Source of the DNA: Ignavibacteria bacterium
Lineage (GTDB): Bacteria > Bacteroidota > Ignavibacteria > Ignavibacteriales > SURF-24
Length of the DNA: 64,000 nt
Reading direction: 5' to 3'
Assembly (NCBI GenBank): GCA_025612245.1
Contig: JAAXKQ010000002.1
Span: 372,001 to 436,000 of the forward strand
Shown here: positions 42,205-50,323 of the stretch, piece after piece
Layout of the letters: every line of letters begins with the position of its first letter
Numbering within the stretch: position 1 is the stretch's first letter
The notes under the pieces: model-generated
What the model was told of the DNA's origin: nothing
Databases searched by the model: none
Seen by the model: only the letters and a program-made list of their open reading frames with translations
Position numbers and translations under genes: made by a program

Positions 42205-43428
42205 TTATGTTCTCTTAAAGAGCCTTTTTTCAATATAACTCTGATAAAGGTCCATGCAGGTTGGAGTAAGAACAATAGCAGCCAGTAGCAAGGTAAGATT
42301 AATTTTATAATTAAAATAGTTGAAAATATTTACTCCTAAATCCAGCTCCAGAATTGCGAGCAAGAGCATGAACCATTTGAAAGCCAGGCCGAACCAGTCC
42401 TTGTAATGGCTTTTTATCGTAAACAAGCCAAGTGCGCAGAGGAAGCAAAATGTGATTGCAAGAAGAAGGCTCAGGAAGTAGGGCATTGTGTCTATGAAAT
42501 TTTCATTTAACAACATGGAAACGATATTGGCGTTAATTACCACGCCGTACATGTCGGGGAAGCTCCTTCCGGCATATCTTTCGTTCAGCGGGGTAAAGAA
42601 GATATCTTCCAGGATTTTTGTGTCCATATTTTCACCCATGAAGCCCATTAAGACTATTTTATTTCTTAAGATCCAGGGCTTCAGGTTTCCTTCAAGCAGG
42701 CTATTGGCATCGAGGAAATAGAATTTATTAAAGTTACCCCTGTAGTTAATAATCTCTTTCTGGTTATTGCGCCTGAGGAAACTCTGATAGCTCTTCTTAT
42801 CTGCTGTTTCGACAATTTTCAGCGGAAAAGCAGGAATTTTAGTGCCTTTATAAAGTGCAAAAGGCTGAAAGCTTCTTATGGTGCGGTAGCCCCCTTTTTC
42901 ATCCTCCGGGAAGTTGGCAAATCCCGTTAGGGCCTTTGCTCTGAATTTGCCCGTGGATGTAATAAGCGTGTCGTAGGTGTCTTTTTCGTCATTAAACTTA
43001 CTCAGCATGCTTACCATCACGAGCTTCTGGCATTTTGTGAGGGCTCTTGAAAGGGCGCTGTCGGATTGGGCGTTTTTCTCTGTCCAGAAAAAAATATCCA
43101 TGGCAACAACCTTCGGGCTGTATTTGTTCAATGTATCTATCTGCCTGGCAATTGAGCCCCTGTCCAGGTTCCCGATATTAACCAGGACAATACTGGTATC
43201 GGCCTTTTGTTCCGGGCGCAGCCTGGAGAAAACAAGGTCGTAGATGTCAAAATCGCTTATAGCCCGGCCGATGGGATCCAGTATTCCCGTCTTAAAGGGG
43301 ATAAGCGAGAAGAGTCCTATGATGGCAAAGACCATAGCCGTAACAAAAAGGCTGTCTATGTACTTCTTATTCACTGTTTGGGCACTGGATTTATATAAAG
43401 AAGATAAAACTTGAGGTTTAATTATCAA
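42205..43428 (-). CDS. CHASE2-domain membrane protein without output domain
   Basis: A 407-residue protein. One N-terminal helix (~28-45) is followed by the extracytoplasmic CHASE2 domain (~55-300, with FDIYDLVFSRLRP, VVAMDIFFWTEKNAQSDSALSRAL, and KIVLMGFMGENMDTKILEDIFFTPL) and three C-terminal helices (~315-395). CHASE2 domains usually precede a cyclase, histidine kinase or Ser/Thr kinase; here the protein ends after the helices, with only ~15 basic residues. Signal output must therefore go through partners. Its gene is the first of a cassette of a FecR-like protein, two cysteine proteases and an exported protein. It is divergent from the RND efflux operon with a 185-bp spacer, so the two share a promoter region. 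Confidence 0.87.
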   Translation of the reverse strand: MIIKPQVLSSLYKSSAQTVNKKYIDSLFVTAMVFAIIGLFSLIPFKTGILDPIGRAISDFDIYDLVFSRLRPEQKADTSIVLVNIGNLDRGSIARQIDTLNKYSPKVVAMDIFFWTEKNAQSDSALSRALTKCQKLVMVSMLSKFNDEKDTYDTLITSTGKFRAKALTGFANFPEDEKGGYRTIRSFQPFALYKGTKIPAFPLKIVETADKKSYQSFLRRNNQKEIINYRGNFNKFYFLDANSLLEGNLKPWILRNKIVLMGFMGENMDTKILEDIFFTPLNERYAGRSFPDMYGVVINANIVSMLLNENFIDTMPYFLSLLLAITFCFLCALGLFTIKSHYKDWFGLAFKWFMLLLAILELDLGVNIFNYFNYKINLTLLLAAIVLTPTCMDLYQSYIEKRLFKRT

Positions 43429-43613
43429 TAGAAGAGCTATAGTGTTGAAAATCAGGAGGCTCTAAAGTGAATTAAATCGGGGGAAAATTCGGTTATATTG
43501 ATATTCAGGGGCAAATTTACTAACTTAGGCTGACCACAGTGCTCCCGCAAAGAGGGTAAAATCAAGTCAATTCTGTCCGTTCATTGGCAATTGAACTTAA
43601 GCCGGAGGAAGTC

Positions 43614-44666
43614 ATGAAAAGGCGTGTAATTACGTTTTCATTTCTTGCAGCAGGTTTAGTCATTCTCGCGTATATGTTTTTCAGGCCCACAAAGATCCAG
43701 ACAGTAACGCGGGAAAAGCTAATTGGCGATGTTCCTGTAAGCGTGACATGGGCAAAGAAGGGCAAAATCTCAAACTCCCTGTCCTTAGTCGGCGTGATAC
43801 AGGCCGACAAGGACATAAATGTAGTATCGGAGACTCAGGGACGGGTTACGGCAATACGATTTAAGGTAGGTGACAACGTCAGGCAGGAGGCAGTGCTTGC
43901 CGAAGTTGACGACGTCATAATGCAGTCGAACCTTGCCTCGGCAGAGATTAATTACCTCAAGGCAAAAAGGGATTTTGAAAGAAGCGAGGTTCTCTTCCAG
44001 GAGAACTCAATTTCGGCCTCGCAGCTGGATCTTGCGAGGCTTCAGCTAAAGGCAGCTGAAAACCAGCTCACTGTTGCAAAAAAGCAGCTCAACAATACGA
44101 AGATCACAACCCCAATTTCAGGCACCGTAAATACGAGAAACGTGGAAGTAGGTACGATGGTCCAGCCCGGAATGGTCATCGCAAACATAGTTGACATATC
44201 GACCTTAAAGGTTAAACTGAACATATCGGAAAAAGAAGCCTTCCAGATCAGGCCCGGTGACAAGGTTGAAGTTACGACGGATGTTTACCCGGGAGAAAGC
44301 TTTACCGGGCACGTAGATAATATAGCCTCAAAAGCCGACGAAGCCCACACATATGCCGTAGAGCTGAAGCTGTCAAACAGCCGCTTGCATCCTTTAAAAG
44401 CCGGGATGTTTGCAAGGGCAAACTTCAATTCTTCTGTGACAAGAGAAGCCATAGTAATTCCACGCGAAGCCCTCATAGGCAGCATCCGCAATGCACAGGT
44501 CTACCTCATCAGGAATAAACAGGCGCTGCTTCAGCCGGTTACAATAGGAAGGCAGTCGGGGCAGGAACTGGAAGTCTTAAGCGGGCTTACAGAAGGCGAC
44601 ATAATAGTGACAAACGGACAGTATAACCTTTCTAACAATTCAAGAGTAGTAACGATCAATAATTAA
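43614..44666 (+). CDS. RND efflux periplasmic adaptor (membrane fusion protein)
   Basis: A 350-residue adaptor connecting the inner-membrane RND pump with an outer-membrane channel. I start at ATG 43614 with GGAGGAAGTC in front; the frame is open from 43584, but that start has no ribosome site. An N-terminal membrane anchor (residues 6-21) precedes the barrel-sandwich/lipoyl domain (~55-100 and ~165-195), a short helical hairpin (~100-160, with Ala-, Glu- and Leu-rich repeats) and beta-barrel domains. Key pieces are VSETQGRVTAIRFKVGDNV and ITTPISGTVNTRNVEVGTMV. It is followed after 15 nt by the RND pump. No TetR- or MarR-type regulator is adjacent; the divergent neighbour is the CHASE2 cassette. 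Confidence 0.92.
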   Translation: MKRRVITFSFLAAGLVILAYMFFRPTKIQTVTREKLIGDVPVSVTWAKKGKISNSLSLVGVIQADKDINVVSETQGRVTAIRFKVGDNVRQEAVLAEVDDVIMQSNLASAEINYLKAKRDFERSEVLFQENSISASQLDLARLQLKAAENQLTVAKKQLNNTKITTPISGTVNTRNVEVGTMVQPGMVIANIVDISTLKVKLNISEKEAFQIRPGDKVEVTTDVYPGESFTGHVDNIASKADEAHTYAVELKLSNSRLHPLKAGMFARANFNSSVTREAIVIPREALIGSIRNAQVYLIRNKQALLQPVTIGRQSGQELEVLSGLTEGDIIVTNGQYNLSNNSRVVTINN

Positions 44667-44681
44667 AGTGAGGATGCTGCC

Positions 44682-47600
44682 ATGACATTAACCGAGCTAT
44701 CAATTAAGAGGCCGTCATTTGTAATAGTCATCTTTTCGGCTCTGGCTCTACTGGCAGTCTTCGGGTATTCCCAGCTGAAATATGAACTGCTTCCGAACAT
44801 AAATATTCCGTGGGTTGTGGTAACGACAGTCTATCCCGGTGCTTCACCAGGCGAAGTTGAAAACAACGTTACAAAGACAATTGAAGATGCACTCTCAGGC
44901 CTTGACAAGGTTGAAAGGATTATGTCCACCTCCTATGAGGGAATATCCGTCATAAGTATAGAGTTTAAGAAGTCGGCAGACGTGGATGTGTCGTTCCAGG
45001 AGGCGCAAAGAAAGATAAACGGCATGATGATGAATCTTCCAAAAGAAGTCAGAACCCCGGTGCTTCAGAAGATATCCCTGCAGGAGACTCCAATATTGCA
45101 GGTGGGTGCAACGGCCGACATGTCGTCGAAGGAATTCTACCAGTTTATTAAAGACCAGATACAGCCCGCCATTTCAAGGGTTGATGGCGTAGGGCTCATT
45201 CTGCTTACAGGAGGGCAGCAAAGGGAAATTAAAATCAACCTGGATGCGCAGAAAATAAGCGCCTACGGGCTTTCAATTGCAAGGATTGCACAGGCGGTCA
45301 ATACATCAAACCTCGACTTCCCGACGGGAAAAATTCAGGGTGCGCAGCAGCAGTTTATTGTAAGGGTTGCAGGAAAGTTCTCCTCCATTGACGACCTAAG
45401 GAATCTTACAGTCGGCCGTTCGGCACAGGGCGGCAACATCCGCCTTGAGGACGTAGCGGAAATTGAAGACGGTACGGCGGAGATAGAAACACTGAACCGC
45501 TTAAACGGAAAGAACTCCATCGGTATTGCAATATTAAAACAGGCGGGTGCCAACTCCGTGCAGGTAAGCAACCTGGTAAGGAAAGAACTCAGCCAGCTGG
45601 AAAAAGATTATGAGTCAATGAACCTGAAGTTTGACGTGGCGCAGGACCAGTCGCTTTTTACCGTGGAGGCTTCAGAGGCAGTGCAGAAAGACCTCTTAAT
45701 AGCAATACTGCTGGTTGCAGCTGTCATGTTTCTTTTTCTTCACAGCATCAGGAACTCCTTTATAGTAATGATTGCAATACCCACTTCACTGACGGCTGCA
45801 TTTGTTGTTATGTGGGCGTTTGATTTTTCACTGAACCTGATGACGCTGCTTGCACTTTCGCTCGTAATAGGAATTCTTGTAGATGACTCAATTGTGGTTT
45901 TGGAAAATATTTACCATCACCTTGAGAAAAAAGAGGACAGGAAAACCGCAGCGCTTAAGGGAAGGAATGAGATAGGCTTTGCAGCCGTTTCAATAACTTT
46001 TGTGGACGTGGTCGTTTTTGTGCCTTTGTCGCTTGTAAGCGGAATGATCGGCGACATAATGCGTGAGTTTGCAATTCTGATTACGGTCTCGACTCTGATG
46101 AGTCTTTTCGTCTCTTTTACCGTGACACCCGTTTTGGCATCCCGCTTCTCAAAGCTTGAAGTCATGTCACCGGGGTCACTCATGGGAAAGATAGCCGCAG
46201 GTTTTGAGAGGTTTTTCAGGAAGCTTACTGCTTACTACCTCAATATGTTAAAATGGAGCCTTAAGAACCCGTGGAAAGTTCTTGCCGGCGCGACCATAAT
46301 TTCCGTTGCCTCGATGGGTCTTCCCGCAATGGGGCTCATCGGCAGCGAATTCATGAAACAGCCCGACAGCGGGGAGTTTATAGTCGTCCTCGAAATGTCT
46401 CCCGGCTCAACGCTTTCAAATACGAACAGGGTAACCCGGCAGGTGGAAGAAATTATTTCGGAACTGCCCGGGGTGAAAAAAATACTGACAAACGTCGGGC
46501 GTGGTGCTAACCGCCAGACGGTCAACAATGCCTCGGAAATTACGGTCACGCTTCTTCCGAAAGAAGAAAGGCAAAAATCCACAAAGGAAATTGCAGACCT
46601 GATACAGGAAAAAGCAAGGCTCATTCCGGATGCAAGGGTTTACATTAATCAGATCGGCGTTACGGGTGAGTCGGGTGAGGCTCCCGTATTTATACAGATT
46701 ACGGGAAGGAGGCCGGACTCCATATGGGCAACGGCAGGGATGGTTACAGAGGCATTAAAGAAAACTCCCGGCATAACGGACATAAAAATGTCATCGGAAC
46801 AGGGGAAGCCCGAGACCAGGGTGGACATCGACCGGCAGAAGATGGCGAACTTCGGCATTACGGTTTTTGACGTGGGCACAACCCTGCAGGTGGCGCTTAC
46901 AGGAAATGACGACTCAAAGTACCGCGAGGGCCAGTTCGAGTATCCGATAAGAATCATGCTCGACCGGTTTGACCGATCGAATATGGATGACATATCCAAG
47001 CTCTCGCTGGTAAATTCCAGCGGGGCTCAGGTGCAGCTTCAGCAGTTTGCAAGTGTTTACCAGAGCCTGGGTCCGACGAAGCTGGAGCGCCAGAACCGCA
47101 ACCCTTCGATGGTTGTTTCGGCATACACCGACGGAAGGCCAATAGGAAGCCTTATGGCATCATTCAGCAAAATACTTGGGGATAAAAAAGCACAGGGAAC
47201 CTTCATCAGCCTCGAGGGGGACGAGAAGATGCGCTCCGAGGGAATGGACTCGCTTATGCTGGCTCTCATTGCGGCAATCATATTTGTCTACCTTATCATG
47301 GTGCTCCTTTTCGATTCCTTTGTCTATCCCTTCGTAGTTTTGTTTTCAATTCCCCTTGCCCTGATAGGCGCCATGGTTGCTCTCGCATTAACCAACAATG
47401 CGCTCAGCATATTCTCCATGCTGGGTGTTATTATGATGATAGGACTCGTTGCAAAAAATGCAATACTGATTGTGGAAAGGACAAACTTCCAGAGGGGGCA
47501 GCAGGCAAGTATCCATGAGGCTCTCATTGAAGCCGGGAGTTCCCGCATCAGGCCGATACTGATGACGACACTTGCAATGGTCTTTGGAATGCTTCCGATT

Positions 47601-47816
47601 GCAACGGCCTCGGGTGCAGGATCCGAATGGAAAAACGGGCTGGCATGGGCTCTGATAGGAGGGCTTACCAGTTCCATGTTCCTGACGCTGATTGTTGTAC
47701 CCGTAGTATATACAAAAATTGACAGGCTTAGAAGGTCAATCCCTGCTTTATTTAAGGCGCCTTTCCCGGTTAAAAGGCATCAGGAGGTGCCCGAAGAAAA
47801 TGCATTCGTAAAATAA
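44682..47816 (+). CDS. RND-family multidrug/efflux transporter permease
   Basis: A 1044-residue inner-membrane pump of the AcrB/HAE1 type, with 12 membrane helices and two large periplasmic loops. The N-terminus (LTELSIKRPSFVIVIFSALA) and the loop PGASPGEVENNVTKTIEDALSG are typical. The proton relay has the Asp pair at 401-402 in ILVDDSIVVLENIYHHLEK. The length is normal and the gene appears intact. It pairs with the adaptor upstream and with the TolC-type protein downstream (44 nt gap), giving a full tripartite pump in one operon. The substrate cannot be predicted; the absence of a metal-binding Met-rich site argues against a CusA-type metal pump. Confidence 0.95.
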   Translation: MTLTELSIKRPSFVIVIFSALALLAVFGYSQLKYELLPNINIPWVVVTTVYPGASPGEVENNVTKTIEDALSGLDKVERIMSTSYEGISVISIEFKKSADVDVSFQEAQRKINGMMMNLPKEVRTPVLQKISLQETPILQVGATADMSSKEFYQFIKDQIQPAISRVDGVGLILLTGGQQREIKINLDAQKISAYGLSIARIAQAVNTSNLDFPTGKIQGAQQQFIVRVAGKFSSIDDLRNLTVGRSAQGGNIRLEDVAEIEDGTAEIETLNRLNGKNSIGIAILKQAGANSVQVSNLVRKELSQLEKDYESMNLKFDVAQDQSLFTVEASEAVQKDLLIAILLVAAVMFLFLHSIRNSFIVMIAIPTSLTAAFVVMWAFDFSLNLMTLLALSLVIGILVDDSIVVLENIYHHLEKKEDRKTAALKGRNEIGFAAVSITFVDVVVFVPLSLVSGMIGDIMREFAILITVSTLMSLFVSFTVTPVLASRFSKLEVMSPGSLMGKIAAGFERFFRKLTAYYLNMLKWSLKNPWKVLAGATIISVASMGLPAMGLIGSEFMKQPDSGEFIVVLEMSPGSTLSNTNRVTRQVEEIISELPGVKKILTNVGRGANRQTVNNASEITVTLLPKEERQKSTKEIADLIQEKARLIPDARVYINQIGVTGESGEAPVFIQITGRRPDSIWATAGMVTEALKKTPGITDIKMSSEQGKPETRVDIDRQKMANFGITVFDVGTTLQVALTGNDDSKYREGQFEYPIRIMLDRFDRSNMDDISKLSLVNSSGAQVQLQQFASVYQSLGPTKLERQNRNPSMVVSAYTDGRPIGSLMASFSKILGDKKAQGTFISLEGDEKMRSEGMDSLMLALIAAIIFVYLIMVLLFDSFVYPFVVLFSIPLALIGAMVALALTNNALSIFSMLGVIMMIGLVAKNAILIVERTNFQRGQQASIHEALIEAGSSRIRPILMTTLAMVFGMLPIATASGAGSEWKNGLAWALIGGLTSSMFLTLIVVPVVYTKIDRLRRSIPALFKAPFPVKRHQEVPEENAFVK

Positions 47817-47860: not shown

Positions 47861-50323
47861 ATGAGAGTTTTAAGAATTTCAACTGGAATTTTACCGGTCT
47901 TGATTTTTCTGCTTTTAGGCCTACAAACATTAGAATGCCAGGAACAGCGCGTAATCAGGATAGGCATTTCGCTTGACGGGCCGTGGCACAGAAATCAGGA
48001 GCTGGTTATGCTGCTTGAGAAAGAAATAAATGACGCCCTCTCCTCGCAGGCAGAAGTTAAGTTCCCGAAAGTGCTGACGGGGGATTGGACGAAAGAAAAA
48101 GTTTCAGCTCTTAATGACGAACTGCTGAATGACAGGGAAATAGATTGCGTAATAGGCTTCGGGCTTCTTTCATCATTTGACCTTGCAAAGAGGAAAAATT
48201 TCCCGAAGCCGGTAATTGCGCCCGTAGTCATAGATCCCTCACACCAGAAAATATCCTTCAGCTCGGGTACAAGCGGAGTAAAGAATCTGTGCTATCTCAT
48301 CTATCCCGATACTTTTCAAAGAGATCTGGAGCAGTTTGGGGAACTGGTTGGGTTTAAGAAGCTTGTGGTTATTGCAAGCAGAAAGTACCATAAGAGTCTT
48401 GAAGTAAATGACGCTCCGACGGAGAAATCCGGGACGGGGGAGAATTCCGGGAAAGCCGGCAAATGGAATATGGTTACGCTTTTCTATGACAATTCCGCCG
48501 ATGAGGTATTGTCGGAAATTCCCAAGGACGCCGATGCCGTCTACCTGCACATAGTACCGATGCCCGAGGCAGAATTTCAAAAGATAACCAAAGAGCTGAT
48601 AAAAAGGAGGCTGCCGAGTTTTTCTTTTTTGGGCGAGTATGACGTAAGGCGGGGAATTATGGCTGCTGCAAGCCCAGACATTTTCCCGAGGATGATCAGG
48701 AGAATTGCCCTCAATGTTCAGAGGATTGCACTTGGCGACGATCCCGGGATGCTGGGTGTTACGTTCTCCCCGGCAAAAAGACTTTACATAAACCTGAAGA
48801 CGGCCTACTCTGTAGGCGTATCTCCAAAGTGGAACACGCTCCTTGAAGCTGAGCTTATACAGCTCGATTCGACTGCAATTCCCGGAGCGCAGAACCTGAC
48901 GCTTAAGTCTGCTGTAAGCAGGATATCTGCGCAGAACCTGGATATACTTTCCAAGCTTCAGGAGATGAATGCGGCCTCGGATAAAATCAGCATCGCACGC
49001 TCAAGCCTCCTGCCGAGAATTGACCTTAATGCCTCGGGCCTTCAGATAGACCAGGACAGGGCTGCCGCGGGCTATCAGCCCGAAAGGCGCGGTACGGTGG
49101 ATTTTTCCGTAAGCCAGGTCTTATTCTCCGAGCAGGCGCTGGCAAACATAAGTATACAGTCGTCTTTGTACGACTCAAAAAAAGATGAGTTTGAAGTCAT
49201 GCGCCTTAACACGGTTTCCGAAGGTGCAAAGCTATACCTGAATTACCTGCGAACAAGAAAGCTGTTCTACATATTGCTCGAAAACTTAAGGCTCATGCGC
49301 CAGAACCTGGAGATTGCATCCATAAGGCAGTCGACCGGTACGGCGGGGCCTGAGGAAAAACTAAGGTGGGAGGCTGAAATTGCCGACATGAGAAAAACGG
49401 CGATGGAAGTTCAAAGCCAGATGAACCAGGTGCAGCTGGCACTCAAACAGGTGATGAACATTCCCTTGATCTATTCAGTCAATATTACGGATGTGTCGCT
49501 GGATGATCCTGAACTGATAATTTCAGACGCCAGAATAAGAAGCTACCTTGAAGACCCCGTAAGCTTTGACCTCATGACGGATTATCTTGTCCAGGAAGGA
49601 ATAAAAAGCTCAAGGGAGATCACACAGATCAGTTCGCTCATGGAAGCACAGAACAGGAATCTGACTTCAATAAGGTATTCATATTATACTCCTGCCATTA
49701 CCGCCTTTGCAACCTACTCAAACACGTTCTATAAATCCAGGATCAACCAGCCCTTCCAGCTGAAAACTCTTCCCTCGCCTCCGGGTTCAATACCGGCTGA
49801 ATTCCCGGCTTACATGGGGCAGCTGCTTTCACTTGTCTCTCCCGGCATTCCGGACAATAACGACTGGAGCCTCGGCTTGCAGGTTTCGCTTAATTTGTCC
49901 GACGGGTTTGCAACGCGCTTTACCGAACAGAAGACAGTTGCAGAGTTGAGCCAGCTGGATTACCAGAAAAAATCCGTAGAGGATAAAATTGCGCTCAGGA
50001 TAAGATATGAAATGGAAACGCTTAAGGCTGCATACTTCGGGATACAGCAGTCGAAAATAGAGCAGGAGGCTGCGCAGAAAACGCTCAGGATTGTAACGGA
50101 TGCATATTCAAGGGGCGCTTTGTCAATTCTGAGCCTCATGGATGCGCAGGCCTCGGCACTCAGGGCAGACCAGATATCTGTAAATGCTTATTACGACCTT
50201 TTCATTGGTTATATGCAGCTGCAGCGTGCAATAGGCAAGTATGACTTCTTCCTGAGCCCGGATGAAAGGAGCCGGTTTAGTGGCGGGCTAATAGACTTCA
50301 TGGAAAGCAAGGTAAAAAGATAA
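47861..50323 (+). CDS. TolC-family outer-membrane protein fused to a binding-protein-like domain
   Basis: An 820-residue protein, far longer than the ~450-residue TolC family. A signal peptide (1-26) is followed by a ~300-residue region (30-335) that resembles an ABC substrate-binding (type I periplasmic-binding) fold: it begins VIRIGISLDGPW and holds alternating strands such as DCVIGFGLLSS, KLVVIASRKYH and DADAVYLHIVPMP. The TolC-like part (~345-810) has the periodic helices, for example LKSAVSRISAQNLDIL and GALSILSLMDAQASALRADQISVNAYYD. The operon partners are an RND adaptor and pump. The N-terminal part could sense a ligand or bind the exported compound; such a fusion is unusual and I know no described function for it. 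There is no internal stop or frameshift. Confidence 0.83.
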   Translation: MRVLRISTGILPVLIFLLLGLQTLECQEQRVIRIGISLDGPWHRNQELVMLLEKEINDALSSQAEVKFPKVLTGDWTKEKVSALNDELLNDREIDCVIGFGLLSSFDLAKRKNFPKPVIAPVVIDPSHQKISFSSGTSGVKNLCYLIYPDTFQRDLEQFGELVGFKKLVVIASRKYHKSLEVNDAPTEKSGTGENSGKAGKWNMVTLFYDNSADEVLSEIPKDADAVYLHIVPMPEAEFQKITKELIKRRLPSFSFLGEYDVRRGIMAAASPDIFPRMIRRIALNVQRIALGDDPGMLGVTFSPAKRLYINLKTAYSVGVSPKWNTLLEAELIQLDSTAIPGAQNLTLKSAVSRISAQNLDILSKLQEMNAASDKISIARSSLLPRIDLNASGLQIDQDRAAAGYQPERRGTVDFSVSQVLFSEQALANISIQSSLYDSKKDEFEVMRLNTVSEGAKLYLNYLRTRKLFYILLENLRLMRQNLEIASIRQSTGTAGPEEKLRWEAEIADMRKTAMEVQSQMNQVQLALKQVMNIPLIYSVNITDVSLDDPELIISDARIRSYLEDPVSFDLMTDYLVQEGIKSSREITQISSLMEAQNRNLTSIRYSYYTPAITAFATYSNTFYKSRINQPFQLKTLPSPPGSIPAEFPAYMGQLLSLVSPGIPDNNDWSLGLQVSLNLSDGFATRFTEQKTVAELSQLDYQKKSVEDKIALRIRYEMETLKAAYFGIQQSKIEQEAAQKTLRIVTDAYSRGALSILSLMDAQASALRADQISVNAYYDLFIGYMQLQRAIGKYDFFLSPDERSRFSGGLIDFMESKVKR

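Follow-up and report, generated by a model that had tools for sequence, protein, structure and literature searches.

A predicted TrpX-type binding-protein domain fused to a TolC-type channel in an RND operon of an Ignavibacteria bacterium

Outer membrane factors of the TolC type are trimers with a 12-stranded barrel in the outer membrane. In the usual view, the specificity and control of the pumps they serve lie with the transporter of the inner membrane and with the adaptor. Thermus TtoA is an example of a relative of TolC that bears an additional domain. TrpX-type binding proteins belong to PF04392, a family whose members normally serve ABC importers. CD0873, VC_1101 and SP1069 of the TrpX family bind Tyr, Phe and Trp (PMC6816091), and in TrpX of S. 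suis the aromatic amino acid is contacted by T108, A127, T129, D152 and N233 (PMC9382623). In TolC, the N-terminal helix starts at the equatorial domain and reaches to the membrane, and in E. coli a lipoprotein, YbjP, is located between the belt of TolC and the outer membrane (PMC13082787).

We analysed a 64,000-nucleotide stretch of DNA from an Ignavibacteria bacterium, hereafter the window. An earlier note, made from its sequence, had proposed that the third gene of an RND operon joins a binding-protein-like domain to a TolC-type channel. The relevant features are the following:

43614..44666, plus strand: periplasmic adaptor (MFP) gene (TIGR01730 RND_mfp, 2.5e-71; HlyD_D23, 2.9e-32)
44682..47816, plus strand: RND efflux permease, 1044 aa (PF00873 ACR_tran, 3.8e-257)
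47861..50323, plus strand: fusion gene, 820 aa, with signal peptide, TrpX-type domain and TolC-type channel
47861..47941, plus strand: signal peptide, residues 1 to ~27 (hydrophobic helix 10-22 in the predicted model)
47948..48862, plus strand: N-terminal domain, residues 30-334, PF04392/TrpX-like type I binding fold with two lobes
48863..48895, plus strand: linker, residues 335-345, up to the first channel helix (limits from structure alignment)
48896..50254, plus strand: TolC/OEP channel part, residues 346-798 (1ek9 alignment; OEP 1.2e-30)

Since the MFP, RND and fusion genes follow one another in this order with gaps of only 15 and 44 bases, they constitute one operon-like unit. As listed, the adaptor ORF opens at a TTG at 43584; the ATG at 43614, which has a good ribosome-binding site (ggagg at 43604) and corresponds in place to the start of a 350-aa MFP in a same-genus relative (L066), is probably the true start. 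For the RND permease the nearest NCBIfam model was RND_permease_2, with a score under the curated cut-off. The fusion frame (47861-50323, plus strand) is uninterrupted through 820 codons. In a pattern scan of 24 fused members, two carried a lipobox pattern, and the window protein showed no classical one. Divergently encoded beside the pump operon is a CHASE2-domain protein (window 42205-43428, minus strand).

The Pfam OEP match of the window protein (1.2e-30) is confined to the C-terminal part, and OEP was found in all 24 fused members examined. In the full-length model, channel residues ~340-798 superimposed on TolC structures with Z-scores of about 29-30; for TolC 1ek9, residues 346-798 aligned with residues 1-411 of the chain (Z 29.3, 402 residues), so that the channel part opens at the equivalent of mature TolC residue 1. 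As modelled, the C-terminal part is a complete TolC-type channel. With the MFP and RND genes upstream, this agrees with the placing of a TolC-type protein third in an RND operon. Most ordinary TolCs in related genomes measure about 410-490 aa, and the extra domain thus explains the excess length, as had been supposed.

The identity of the N-terminal domain was approached by structure prediction and profile searches. The AlphaFold model of the entire 820-aa protein had a mean pLDDT of 84.5, and its residues 30-334 matched 3lkv with Z 26.1 over 285 residues, as well as 3lft and 6hni. Modelled alone, the domain reached a pLDDT of 90.2 and a pTM of 0.87, with Z 24.7 to 3lkv; the TrpX group scored Z 21-25 (best three 24.7, 24.4 and 23.8), and the next structure outside the group about 16.6. 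Foldseek matched this domain-alone model to 3lft at 1.4e-15, and the model is closer to the closed form 6hni than to the open form 6hnj. The agreement of both models and Foldseek bears out the earlier suggestion that the roughly 300 residues ahead of the channel adopt a type I periplasmic-binding fold; the contrary outcome, an extra region without such a fold, was considered and is not what the predicted models display. The TrpX assignment could not be confirmed from the window sequence alone, because this single sequence is too remote and its match to PF04392 (11.2-11.3 bits) lies under the 25.9 cut-off. However, PF04392 was matched by 12 of 19 and 13 of 24 fused relatives, at best with 5.2e-11, and a profile of 24 fused proteins searched against PDB sequences retrieved 3lkv (2.1e-12), 3lft (1.8e-7) and 6hni (6.5e-6). 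Together, the models and profiles confirm that the predicted fold is a type I binding-protein fold of the TrpX kind (PF04392).

The fusion is not restricted to the window. A same-genus genome (G001) carries it at 83% identity and two further genomes of the same order at 30% and 25% identity, each time as a single chain some 780-810 residues long. A scan of genome contigs with the single window sequence gave no match. A first profile, made from four N-terminal domains of the window's order, had matches in 22 of the 395 phylum genomes and in 11 of the 294 class genomes, its strong matches lying mostly in open frames of 790-890 aa; the family is sparse yet widespread in the phylum. A second profile (four rows, A5) yielded 33 named loci labelled Acidobacteria, Gemmatimonadetes, KSB1, Aminicenantes, Delta-, Gamma- and Alphaproteobacteria, Chlamydiae and others, the labels being record titles, mostly of metagenome bins, any one of which may be wrong. 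By these labels, the fusion loci span about ten or more phyla. A full fusion is present on a plasmid of an isolate, Sulfuricurvum kujiense (Campylobacterota). Plasmids of Cetobacterium (Fusobacteriota) carry shortened fusions with RND operons (L087:5503-7683, 726 aa; L088:5368-7539, 723 aa), which suggests that the domain is open to reduction. No pump genes were detected beside one fused gene of the window's phylum (L077:6567-9359), whose genome is a single contig. None were detected, either, beside a deltaproteobacterial copy (L094:7953-10367) with an in-frame stop where the channel part begins, which could be a nonsense mutation or a sequencing error.

Altogether, 51 further loci have both domains in one open frame, a few of them being duplicates of one genome. 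At 44 of the 51, RND or RbbA-type ABC exporter genes adjoin on the same strand; several of the seven loci without exporter neighbours stop at contig ends. Fusion-MFP-RND is the commonest order (36 loci), and the MFP-RND-fusion order is shared by the window and three others. Four loci, in Sulfuricurvum and three gammaproteobacterial bins, have an HlyD-type adaptor, an RbbA-type ABC protein and a second permease; the two RbbA-type proteins tested both scored far above the cut-off of equivalog model NF033858. Judged by gene neighbourhood, a fused channel of one kind appears to work with energised pumps of two kinds at least, RND and RbbA-type ABC. Two TetR-family regulator genes flank the fusion-HlyD-RbbA-permease set (L086:5349-14053) of the Sulfuricurvum plasmid pSULKU01. 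No second channel gene was noticed in the short fusion operons (the 44 loci with RND or RbbA-type genes), and the flanking genes of a few relatives revealed no common functional partner. In a same-order genome (G018), a 945-aa protein (L085:5520-8357) unites PF04392 and Peripla_BP_4-like domains with a BPD_transp_2 permease in a fusion of the importer type, and the gene after it resembles an ABC ATPase.

A tree of the channel halves was computed from 47 fused proteins and 29 ordinary outer membrane factors. Fused and ordinary channels formed two groups split by one branch with support 100/99. This is consistent with a single fusion event, in a tree that is unrooted and whose ordinary members all come from genomes of the window's order.

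The position of the fused domain can be estimated from the TolC alignment. It stops about ten residues ahead of the TolC-equivalent N-terminal helix, and because the channel part starts where mature TolC starts, the domain should lie at the equatorial belt, in the region that binds YbjP in E. coli TolC. By homology, three such domains should surround the belt of the trimeric duct, in the periplasm.

The two halves of the fused proteins are about equally conserved (mean entropy 1.94 versus 1.83 bits), which argues that the binding-protein domain is kept under selection. Within it, conservation peaks at the hinge crossing (S138-G139..N142..Y145) and in helix 276-292 with R280-R281, as expected if lobe movement matters; N311 is also conserved, and all 24 members share D39, which lies in the loop that follows the first strand. 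By contact sites transferred through remote profile alignment of sequence rather than coordinates, T108, A127, T129 and N233 of TrpX are each retained in none of the 24 fused proteins and D152 in one. The window protein has L102, V122, I124, Y148 and P233 at the T108, A127, T129, D152 and N233 sites, and replacements at 102 and 124 are nearly all hydrophobic across the 24. Because the contact residues are not retained, amino-acid binding in the manner of TrpX is unlikely. The hydrophobic replacements could merely fill a dead cleft. Within the fused family, strand-end loops facing the cleft showed no better conservation than far-side loops (2.25 versus 1.89 bits); the same was seen in most sub-clades looked at, with the three ABC-linked ones as an exception. 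Cleft conservation therefore failed as a proof of ligand binding.

We favour the explanation that the fusion gene provides an outer-membrane exit duct dedicated to an RND tripartite pump, with a TrpX-type domain that would be joined to each of its three subunits by a linker some ten residues long. In this domain, the TrpX clamp for amino acids would have been given up and the cleft re-lined, often with hydrophobic residues and differently from pump to pump. The domain would then bind a small molecule, as a periplasmic sensor or capture module at the belt. We put the probability of such a sensing or capture domain, with its re-lined, pump-specific cleft, at roughly 50%. Through the conserved hinge and helix 276-292, the domain could favour adaptor docking or duct opening. 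The stronger proposal that three domains sense or capture a periplasmic compound and control docking or opening from the outer-membrane side, making the duct ligand-gated, we regard as rather unlikely. The earlier idea that the domain could recognise the compound being exported, or gate the pump, is only partly supported: fold and hinge persist, whereas the TrpX contacts are gone and the cleft loops are not conserved family-wide.

The most serious alternative is that the fold serves without a ligand, as a rigid collar around the belt that holds the channel on its membrane, peptidoglycan or adaptor side, comparable to YbjP in its position between the belt of E. coli TolC and the outer membrane. 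What speaks against sensing, namely the lost TrpX contacts, the variable cleft loops and the shortened fusobacterial domain of Cetobacterium, speaks for such a collar, as does attachment near the YbjP site on TolC (PMC13082787). Retention of the domain with unrelated pumps, RND and RbbA ABC, likewise favours a role tied to the duct. However, a complete two-lobe fold in which the hinge is highly conserved and D39, in a strand-end loop, never varies exceeds what a collar needs. The sensing or capture explanation is favoured over the collar because, in our judgement, the conserved hinge and the complete two-lobe fold would be costly for a collar, which we nevertheless hold to be a quite possible, if less probable, role.

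It is very improbable that the domain functions as a binding protein of the importer type, delivering ligand to an ABC importer and only riding on the channel. The fusion of a permease with PF04392 in a related genome (L085) lends this some colour, but pump genes, and no recognised importer genes, were found beside the fusion in the loci analysed, and the TrpX ligand residues are absent. A search of the window genome yielded no PF04392 protein standing on its own, so there is no obvious case for seeing the domain as a spare importer subunit. That assembly or annotation merged two separate genes, an objection anticipated in the earlier note and suggested by the in-frame stop dividing the two parts in the L094 relative, has a negligible chance of being right, because both domains are confidently modelled on one chain and one frame of about 780-830 aa recurs in the large majority of loci and in independent assemblies, including the complete plasmid of the Sulfuricurvum isolate.

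The earlier note knew of no described example of this fusion, and we likewise found no description of a binding-protein domain on an outer membrane factor in the open-access journal literature; the accessible part of a large Chem Rev review does not mention 'periplasmic binding protein'. Databases name members after one half, either 'ABC transporter substrate binding protein' or 'TolC family protein'. It seems that the sequences are already known and the architecture is undescribed. We describe the protein as a TolC-type exit duct, itself of a known kind, to which a diverged TrpX-type domain has been added. A widespread binding-protein fold borne on the duct makes a role of outer membrane factors in substrate recognition or gating testable, and an import-type domain would have been recruited to export. 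A ligand-gated duct, if true, would constitute a regulatory principle undescribed for tripartite pumps in the literature searched, used across several pump types and phyla.

Among described systems, outer membrane factors of the TolC/OprM kind (PF02321) share with the fused channel the complete TolC fold and the operon with MFP and RND genes. The fused channel differs by about 310 extra residues in front and by forming a group separate from the TolCs of related genomes. The YbjP-TolC complex of E. coli (PMC13082787, PMC13095208) also has a globular partner near the belt, as placed here, with YbjP in a 3:3 ratio; YbjP is a separate lipoprotein, whereas the window domain is part of the channel chain and has a binding-protein fold. 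RbbA (NF033858) with an HlyD-type adaptor and an ABC-2 permease is the exporter paired with the fused channel in four loci, whereas the partner of the window fusion is an RND pump. TrpX-type binding proteins (PF04392; 3LFT, 3LKV, 6HNI/CD0873) have the predicted fold in common over nearly the whole domain (Z 24-26), with homology detectable by sequence profile. In contrast to these proteins, the fused domain has lost the aromatic amino-acid contacts, resides on a channel chain and is partnered by an exporter rather than an ABC importer.
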